DNA of 64,000 nt from Kosmotoga olearia TBF 19.5.1 (lineage in GTDB: Bacteria; Thermotogota; Thermotogae; Petrotogales; Kosmotogaceae). How positions within the stretch are numbered: position 1 is the stretch's first letter; each line of letters starts with the position of its first letter. This document shows positions 40,770 through 56,116 of the stretch, piece by piece. A model generated the notes under the pieces. The model was given only the letters and a program-made list of their open reading frames with translations. It was not told where the DNA came from and made no database searches. The stretch spans positions 1,674,001 through 1,738,000 of the forward strand of contig NC_012785.1 of NCBI RefSeq assembly GCF_000023325.1, written 5' to 3'. The translations under genes were made by a program, and so were the position numbers.

Positions 40770-40858
40770 CTTTTGAACCATCAGAATAATCGCAAAGTCT
40801 CAAAAAATGAACCCAATTTTTTGCCACACAGTTGATGAAGAGGAGGGAGGTAGAAAAT

Positions 40859-42247
40859 ATGAAAAGACTTTTTGTTGTTTCTCTCGTGATCCTTCTTGCA
40901 ACCCTGGGTCTGGCATATGTGAATCCAGATTATGAAAGTCCCATTGTGAAGGTTGTGGAAGTAGCAGCACCCGCAGTCGTAAAGATCGATGTGGTAACCA
41001 CTCAGCGTTATAGTCCCTTCGATCCTTTCACTGATGAGTTTTTTAGAAAATTCTTCGGTGAGATTCCCTTTGGAGAGCGAAAAGCAGAAGCACTTGGTTC
41101 TGGATTCATATTTGATAAAGAGGGTTACATTCTTACCAACGAACATGTTGTCCATAACGCTGACAAGATAATGGTTACTTTGCTGGATGGTAGCAAATAC
41201 CCGGCGAAGTATATCGGTGGGGATGAAGAACTCGATATCGCGGTTATCAAGATAGATCCTGACGGAAAGGATCTCCCTGTTCTTGAAATAGGCGATTCTG
41301 ATAAGCTTCAGATAGGCGAATGGGCGATAGCTATTGGGAATCCTCTTGGATTCCAGCATACGGTGACGGTAGGTGTTGTGAGTGCGGTAGGAAGGCAGAT
41401 CCCGAAACCGGAAGGAAATGGTTATTATTCCAATCTCATTCAAACGGACGCGGCGATTAATCCTGGAAACTCTGGTGGACCGCTTTTGAACATTCACGGT
41501 CAGGTTATCGGGATCAATACAGCCATCGTTTCTCCCCAGTATGGGACAACGCTTGGCTTTGCGATCCCGATCAATATGGCCATGAGGTTTGTGGATTCTA
41601 TAATCAAAACAGGGACTGTTCAAAAAGCTTTCCTTGGCGTTTATGTCACAACGGTTACCGAAAGCACAGCTAAATCGCTGGGCCTAAAGGTTGATGAAGG
41701 TGCGTTGGTCACCGATGTTTTCAAGGATTCTCCTGCGGAAAAAGCCGGTATAAAACCTCAAGACGTCATTATAAAACTGAATGGCCTTGATATTCGCAGC
41801 TCTTCAGAGCTTGTAGCGGCGGTACACAACTATCCCGCGGGAGCCAGAGTTACGATAACGGTTGACAGGTTCGGCAAGAGGATCACTTTCGATGTTGTCC
41901 TTGGTTATCAGGATAACGCTTCCGGCGAATCGAATGCACAGTACTCAGATGACAAATTAGGATTGGTTTTGGGAAACCTGCTACCCGGGGACAGGGAAAG
42001 GCTTTCAATTCCGGAGGAGATCAATGGTGTAATTGTGCGTGATGTTAAAGCTAAAGCCTATGCAGCGCAGCTTGGAATCAAGAAGGACGATGTCATTATT
42101 CGAATCAGCATCAACGGTAAGCAGAAAGAAATATCCAGTCTGGAGGATTACGAAAAGGTAATAAAATCCCTTGAAAGAGGGGACTATGTAGCACTCTTCA
42201 TATTGCATGAGGGTGTACGGTTTGTAGCTTCATTCAGATATTACTGA
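40859..42247 (+). CDS. htrA: HtrA/DegP-family periplasmic serine protease
   Basis: 462 aa. Signal peptide (MKRLFVVSLVILLATLGLAYV), trypsin-like domain with catalytic His96 (LTNEHVVHN), Asp126 (ELDIAVIKID) and Ser205 (NPGNSGGPL), then two PDZ domains (about 255-345 and 370-460). Envelope protein quality control. ATG 40859 follows AGGAGGGAGG; the upstream ATG 40832 is not near a binding site. Convergent with the btuD gene. Confidence 0.95.
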   Translation: MKRLFVVSLVILLATLGLAYVNPDYESPIVKVVEVAAPAVVKIDVVTTQRYSPFDPFTDEFFRKFFGEIPFGERKAEALGSGFIFDKEGYILTNEHVVHNADKIMVTLLDGSKYPAKYIGGDEELDIAVIKIDPDGKDLPVLEIGDSDKLQIGEWAIAIGNPLGFQHTVTVGVVSAVGRQIPKPEGNGYYSNLIQTDAAINPGNSGGPLLNIHGQVIGINTAIVSPQYGTTLGFAIPINMAMRFVDSIIKTGTVQKAFLGVYVTTVTESTAKSLGLKVDEGALVTDVFKDSPAEKAGIKPQDVIIKLNGLDIRSSSELVAAVHNYPAGARVTITVDRFGKRITFDVVLGYQDNASGESNAQYSDDKLGLVLGNLLPGDRERLSIPEEINGVIVRDVKAKAYAAQLGIKKDDVIIRISINGKQKEISSLEDYEKVIKSLERGDYVALFILHEGVRFVASFRYY

Positions 42248-42265
42248 TATCGATATAAACTGCAT

Positions 42266-42335
42266 AAAAAAGCGCCGCGTCACCAGTAACGGTGTGCTCG
42301 CGGCGCTCCCCCCTTTTCCCCTGTTACGGGTACAC
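42266..42335 (-). ncRNA. Candidate small RNA ending in a strong terminator
   Basis: Between btuD and htrA, on the - strand. A promoter-like pair (42368-42341) would start RNA near 42335. The predicted ~70-nt RNA ends in a hairpin GCGCCGCG/CGCGGCGC (42306-42299 and 42279-42272) with an inner CACC/GGTG stem and loop GTTACT, then T6 at 42271-42266. An upstream segment ACCCGTAAC (42332-42324) could pair 8 of 9 bases with GTTACTGGT in the terminator, an alternative fold. It contains no open reading frame I would defend. If the promoter is false, this is simply the terminator of the btu operon. Confidence 0.45.
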
Positions 42336-42340
42336 AAGGG

Positions 42341-42368
42341 ATTATAGCATAACCTTGCTTAAAGCCAA
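42341..42368 (-). promoter_or_regulatory. Promoter-like element downstream of btuD
   Basis: On the - strand, TTGGCT (42368-42363), 16 bases, then TATAAT (42346-42341) preceded by TG at 42349-42348, making an extended -10. It points at the terminator hairpin at 42306-42266 with no gene between. Confidence 0.5.
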
Positions 42369-42371
42369 AAA

Positions 42372-43151
42372 TCAATGGAAAATTACCAGAGGTTTTCCAT
42401 TTATGGGATTTTTGATTATCTTCGACTTCACACCATAAACCTTTTCCAGAAGCTCTTCAGTAATCACTTCCTCAGGGTGGCCTTTTGAGATTATCTTTCC
42501 GTCTTTCAGAAACATAATCTCACTCGATACCTTTATAGCCTGGTTCACATCATGGGCAACCATTATCGCCGTCAGGTTGTTGGTTTTAATCAGATTCAGG
42601 GTAAGGTCCAGAAGCTTTTGTGAGTGACCGGGATCGAGGTGTGTGGTGAACTCGTCCAGGAGTAGGAGCTGACCTTCCTGTGCCAACGATTTTGCAATGA
42701 TAACGCGTTGTTTTTCACCACCGCTGAGGGTGGAGCATCGTCTTTCCCTGAATTCGTAAACCTCTGTGCTTTTCATCGAAGCTTCTATTATTTCATAATC
42801 TCTTTTGTTGAGTCCTCGAAAAAGCGAAAGATGGGGATTCCTTCCAAAGGAGACTATTGTGAAGTTCTTCAGGTCAAAAACAGGTGAAAACTCCTGTGGA
42901 ATATAAGAAGCGATCATTGCTAGATGTTTTATGGAATATTCTTTTACTTCTTTATCGAGGATCTTTACGCTTCCGCTGTAATCTCTCAAGATACCAACTA
43001 TTATCTTCAACAACGTGGATTTTCCACTTCCGTTAGGTCCAAGGATACTTAAAACCTTGCCTTTTTCAACGGAAAAACTTATGTTTTTGAGGACCTCTTC
43101 GTTCGTGTAACGGTAAGTGAGTCCTTCGACTCTTACGAAAAAGTCACTCAC
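42372..43151 (-). CDS. btuD: ABC transporter ATP-binding protein, vitamin B12 import
   Basis: 259 aa. Walker A GPNGSGKST, signature LSGGEKQRVIIAKSLAQ, Walker B LLLLDEFTTHLD and H loop VAHD, all of the FecE/FhuC/BtuD iron-siderophore/B12 family. The order substrate-binding protein, permease, ATPase and the cobalamin riboswitch upstream indicate B12 (or a corrinoid precursor) rather than iron. Overlaps the permease gene by eight bases. Confidence 0.88.
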   Translation of the reverse strand: MSDFFVRVEGLTYRYTNEEVLKNISFSVEKGKVLSILGPNGSGKSTLLKIIVGILRDYSGSVKILDKEVKEYSIKHLAMIASYIPQEFSPVFDLKNFTIVSFGRNPHLSLFRGLNKRDYEIIEASMKSTEVYEFRERRCSTLSGGEKQRVIIAKSLAQEGQLLLLDEFTTHLDPGHSQKLLDLTLNLIKTNNLTAIMVAHDVNQAIKVSSEIMFLKDGKIISKGHPEEVITEELLEKVYGVKSKIIKNPINGKPLVIFH

Positions 43152-55999: not shown

Positions 56000-56028
56000 T
56001 TGAAATTATAATTGGTGTAGTGTATAAT
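56000..56028 (+). promoter_or_regulatory. Promoter of tRNA-Ala
   Basis: TTGAAA (56000-56005), 17 bases, TATAAT (56023-56028). Expected start near 56035, six bases before the tRNA. Confidence 0.85.
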
Positions 56029-56040
56029 CTTTGACGAAGT

Positions 56041-56116
56041 GGGGTCGTAGCGCAGCTGGGAGCGCGTCACAATGGCATTGTGAAGGCCGAGGGTTCGAAT
56101 CCCTTCGACTCCACCA
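56041..56116 (+). tRNA. tRNA-Ala (anticodon GGC)
   Basis: 76 nt with encoded CCA. Acceptor arms GGGGTCG and CGACTCC (with one G-U pair), discriminator A, CCA at 56114-56116. The anticodon stem TCACA/TGTGA holds the loop ATGGCAT, giving anticodon GGC for GCC/GCU codons. T arm GAGGG TTCGAAT CCCTT is regular. Confidence 0.95.

Follow-up and report, generated by a model that had tools for sequence, protein, structure and literature searches.

A putative small-RNA gene, conserved within one family, at the 3' end of htrA in Kosmotoga olearia

Little is known about small RNAs in the Thermotogota. In Thermotoga maritima there are 13 putative ncRNAs, none of which has a definable structure (PMC3636130), and the only transcriptome of Kosmotoga olearia that we found was selected against RNA of <200 nt, and so against the size considered here (PMC5674127). 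Among general kinds of RNA, those closest to the locus described below are the classic intergenic sRNA genes, which consist of a sigma-70 promoter and an intrinsic terminator, and the cis-encoded 3'-UTR antisense RNAs, or convergent overlapping transcripts. The locus very probably holds a new small-RNA gene of a familiar kind that is restricted to one family, and no published mention of the RNA was found. Such an RNA gene, conserved in its place opposite the htrA 3' end, would offer a concrete handle on post-transcriptional control in a host with a growth range of 20 to 79 °C.

The unit, a promoter followed by a hairpin and a T-run, occupies positions 42368-42266 (minus strand) of the window, which is the whole analysed stretch of 64,000 nucleotides of K. 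olearia TBF 19.5.1; it was delimited by reading the sequence together with a promoter/terminator scan. Reading and scan agree with the preliminary description of this DNA in finding TTGGCT and TATAAT 16 nucleotides apart, with an extended TG, on this strand: the -35 hexamer lies at 42363..42368 and the extended -10, TGC-TATAAT, at 42341..42349 (TG 42349-42348, TATAAT 42346-42341). The promoter is among the two best sigma-70-like sites within 5 kb, and a search of 164 kb of the K. olearia genome for TTGnnn-(16-18)-TATAAT with an extended TG gives a single match, where 0.3 are expected under a first-order Markov model. The promoter is probably of the near-consensus housekeeping type with an extended -10, and the RNA gene is probably constitutive. 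The same near-consensus type is seen in TTGAAA-17-TATAAT at 56000-56028 (plus strand), directly 5' of a tRNA gene (56041-56113). Reading off the -10, the 5' end of the RNA would lie near 42335-42333; its 3' end is predicted in the T run, and covariance model R1 covers the resulting small RNA of ~70 nt (42266..42335, minus strand).

Two genes flank the unit. Convergent with it is htrA (40832..42247, plus strand), a protease Do-like gene with trypsin-like and PDZ domains according to its ORF and Pfam, whose stop codon falls 18 nt short of the small RNA's 3' end. Upstream on the minus strand is btuD (42372..43151), the stop codon of which is found a few nucleotides before the -35, so that the unit does lie after btuD as first described. 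This is the last gene of a btuF-btuC-btuD-like operon preceded by a cobalamin riboswitch (45253-45088, minus strand; Rfam RF00174, 103.7 bits).

The predicted RNA folds with -31.7 kcal/mol (z = -3.05), a value equalled by 1/200 shuffled sequences. It is composed of a 5' mini-hairpin, CCC-GUAACA-GGG (42319..42330), a G-rich linker, GGGG-AAAA-GGGGGG (42308..42321), and an intrinsic terminator (42266..42307) with the stem AGCGCCGCG / CGCGGCGCT, an inner stem CACC/GGTG, a variable loop and T6 at 42271-42266, all on the minus strand. The two-part hairpin and the T6 were thus rightly noticed before, although the hairpin has 9 + 4 = 13 pairs and not 12, and the ~30 bases ahead of it that were taken as unpaired contain the short CCC/GGG hairpin. 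The G6 run is able to add ~five G.U pairs with the U tract of the terminator. A consensus terminator scan omitted the small RNA's terminator, probably owing to its 8-nt loop limit and stem rules. That the unit holds no reading frame is essentially true; its ends are crossed by mechanical ORFs of 31 and 35 aa, and short frames occur in a few copies, but none is common to the 16 copies described below.

The distribution of the unit was followed in 17 genomes of the family, inferred to be the Kosmotogaceae, with 86 other genomes of the phylum as a comparison set. Carriers of the unit belong to K. olearia's own genus (g1) and to the genera g2 (n=2), g3 (n=3) and g4 (n=10, inferred to be Mesotoga-like), while g5 stands for a single genome, G004. 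A blastn search with a 181-bp query from the locus had matches in a sister genus, in three of its genomes (E 4e-11, 1e-10 and 2e-8), and in the two more complete of these the matches lie ~20 kb away from btuD. When htrA was fetched from all 17 genomes the unit was found 3' of it in 16, G004 being the sole family genome without it at that place. The covariance search among Kosmotoga and Mesotoga relatives that had been suggested at the outset gave one significant match of R1, a model of the RNA part, per genome in exactly these 16 (E 4e-8 to 2e-14), and nothing convincing or above noise among the 86 other genomes. The weak R1 matches outside the unit that were read are ordinary terminators or coding-like sequence; the one weak match in the phylum is in G058 (E 0.02). 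A plasmid search for the unit was empty, a homologue search through btuD in genome contigs returned only distant ABC transporters, and Rfam 15 gave no match at the unit, either in the window at the gathering threshold or at seven homologous loci at E <= 5.

Within these copies conservation is highest in the extended -10, which is present in 16/16 and shows 92% identity between genera against 35% for the adjacent spacer. A TTG at the -35 position, correctly spaced 16-17 nt from TATAAT, is likewise found in 16/16 copies, with a chance expectation of 0.03-0.20 per copy. In the alignment of the 16 copies three pairs of the terminator stem show compensatory changes and 97% of the stem's cells are paired, as opposed to 48-69% with slid-partner controls; much of the covariation lies within the terminator, which could be conserved just as a terminator. 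A further helix, between the conserved G-run and the U/C tract, is predicted by RNAalifold, again with 97% of cells paired, and g4 copies have C in the tract at positions where G can pair; as the changes are on one side only, this helix is plausible but not proven. In the 5' mini-hairpin, which most copies support, two pairs have two-sided change and 70% of cells are paired; the hairpin is absent in G016, weak in g2 and longer (UUAAUCC/GGAUUAA) in most copies of g4. Both G-runs of the linker are kept in three of the four genera (alignment A2), the first having been lost in g2, and the predicted transcript length across copies is 65-72 nt.

The position of the unit at the convergent htrA 3' end is seen on one contig in 15 copies; in G008 a break between contigs separates htrA from the unit. 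Across copies the small RNA's 3' end lies a few to ~90 nt past the stop codon of htrA. Most of the g4 copies tested have, on the htrA strand, a strong predicted terminator, CCCCTGTGC...GCACAGGGG-TTTTTT, that encloses the small RNA's -10, and the predicted htrA 3' UTR therefore spans, and is fully complementary to, the whole small RNA. Conservation in g4 is in part due to this overlapping terminator. At the g4 loci L093, L095 and L098 the same bases would serve htrA termination and small-RNA initiation. No clear htrA-strand terminator was found past the small RNA in g1, g2 and g3. Beyond the family, most relatives have a plain hairpin terminator at the htrA 3' end and no TGnTATAAT promoter, which suggests that the RNA gene originated when a promoter evolved beside a shared terminator. 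Complementarity of the small RNA to the htrA leader is unremarkable, so that the argument for an antisense role is one of position. The protease Do of K. olearia (Kole_1599) is a heat-shock protease reported to rise at 77 °C and fall at 40 °C (PMC5674127). Judging from the name and the approximate genome position, Kole_1599 is probably the htrA of the window.

The preliminary description had offered two readings, an independent ~70-nt RNA or a conditional terminator of the B12 operon. Comparative genomics supports the former well, as promoter, RNA body and terminator are kept together in 16/17 genomes while the same-strand upstream gene is btuD in g1 and g2 only, an unrelated gene in g4 and missing in g3, where rimP points away (divergent). 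The strongest evidence for selection of a separate transcript is a conserved promoter that has outlasted the exchange of the gene ahead of it. As adjacency to htrA is constant and the upstream gene variable, the unit belongs to the tail of htrA and not to the B12 operon. An attenuator of that operon would find btuD in a suitable place in K. olearia, and the proposed 8-of-9 pairing of ACCCGTAAC with GTTACTGGT is real on paper (-7.0 kcal/mol). However, as a switch it is 11 kcal/mol weaker than the terminator (the enforced alternative has -20.4 against -31.7 kcal/mol), and it has no conserved partner in other copies because the terminator loop varies; neither fold energies nor comparison of copies revealed mutually exclusive conserved folds. 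Since, moreover, g3 and g4 have no btuD beside the unit and the minus strand has no gene directly downstream to control, we consider this attenuator extremely improbable. In K. olearia the hairpin probably terminates btuD transcription as well, as an ordinary shared terminator rather than a switch, since the btuD stop adjoins the -35 and no other terminator lies between. It could even be argued that the unit is merely a shared terminator of convergent genes, namely the upstream operon and htrA, with an incidental TATAAT: a same-strand gene that needs a terminator ends just before the -35 in g1, g2 and g4, a second terminator serves htrA in g4, and plain terminators prevail at this place among relatives outside the family. 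Yet in g3 promoter and terminator persist with no such gene upstream, and the strongly conserved extended -10 sits beside a spacer that is near random, which makes a mere terminator quite improbable.

It is possible, but rather doubtful, that the RNA acts mainly in trans, its G-rich linker and 5' loop pairing, possibly together with Hfq, to C-rich parts of other RNAs, and the htrA site being a mere birthplace. The two G-runs kept in three of four genera, the presence of hfq in 17/17 family genomes and a promoter that looks constitutive would all suit such a role; however, g2 is without the first G-run, the G-run would mask the U tail, and the complementary 13-mer is not enriched genome-wide (60 matches, several of them the locus itself, against 52 for the reversed control). 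As regards features of Hfq-type sRNAs, the U tail is pairable by the G-run and the best candidate partner is supported only in g1 and g3. The linker could pair with the anti-Shine-Dalgarno sequence, taken from general knowledge, at ~-12 kcal/mol, but selection for Shine-Dalgarno mimicry looks unlikely because GGAGG is present in 0/16 copies, and GGA motifs of the CsrA type are, judged by eye, not kept in every copy. The candidate partner is a second conserved RNA-like element, which surfaced from a search for the complement of the G-rich linker. It lies outside the window (G000:C1:627714-627800), in the 3' UTR that follows a ~36-aa ORF next to tandem ArsR-type genes, and consists of the C-runs GCAACACCCCCCC-UUU-CCCCACGGA and a terminator. 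Model R2 finds it in 12 family genomes (K. olearia and 11 others) and it is degenerate in G004; it has no Rfam match. Its CCCCCC-UUU(U)-CCCC matches the GGGG-AAAA-GGGGGG of the small RNA, and g1, g3 and most of g4 have the two motifs intact; in g2 the C-rich element is missing and the first G-run has been lost, and in G004 the G-rich RNA is missing and the C-runs are broken. This co-occurrence is suggestive. The duplex energy is near the top of the background in g1 and g3 (1/6650 windows as good) and unexceptional in g4 (76/6650 in G012, 813/6650 in G009); cognate pairs are no better than non-cognate ones. The C-rich element is thus a weak candidate for the partner of the small RNA, and a regulatory pair in which one sponges the other is unlikely.

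The whole reading that we prefer, and consider likely, is that of an independent small-RNA gene, specific to the inferred Kosmotogaceae, lying antisense to the htrA 3' UTR; its core, a functional independent RNA gene, is highly likely. Computation shows promoter, RNA, terminator and position to be conserved; transcription, stability of the RNA and any effect on htrA are inferred. An extended -10 housekeeping promoter would start a non-coding transcript of 65-72 nt made up of a small 5' hairpin, the G-rich linker and a strong terminator hairpin. Its 3' end should be protected by the conserved G-run, which can zip onto the U/C tract. With the RNA gene placed tail-to-tail with the htrA 3' end, any htrA mRNA running well past its stop would be complementary to the small RNA, which could pair with it and affect 3'-end formation, stability or convergent transcription. 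Such antisense control of htrA mRNA, perhaps with trans targets in addition, seems the most likely function; it is quite possible, if short of probable, that htrA is the main target.

How, then, does this RNA compare with those already described? With the putative ncRNAs of T. maritima (PMC3636130) it shares the phylum and the nature of an unannotated short transcript, in this case a predicted one; it differs from them in having a definable predicted structure, and R1 found no homologue in the 86 other genomes of the phylum. It resembles classic intergenic sRNA genes in having its own promoter, a length of 65-72 nt, a terminator, no conserved ORF and hfq in the genome, but it has no Rfam family, its linker is G-rich instead of C/U-rich, and its U tail is pairable by the G-run. 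Like cis-encoded 3'-UTR antisense RNAs and convergent overlapping transcripts it runs against the 3' end of a gene, and in most tested g4 copies it lies fully inside the predicted htrA 3' UTR; unlike them, its sequence and structure are conserved beyond what complementarity needs.
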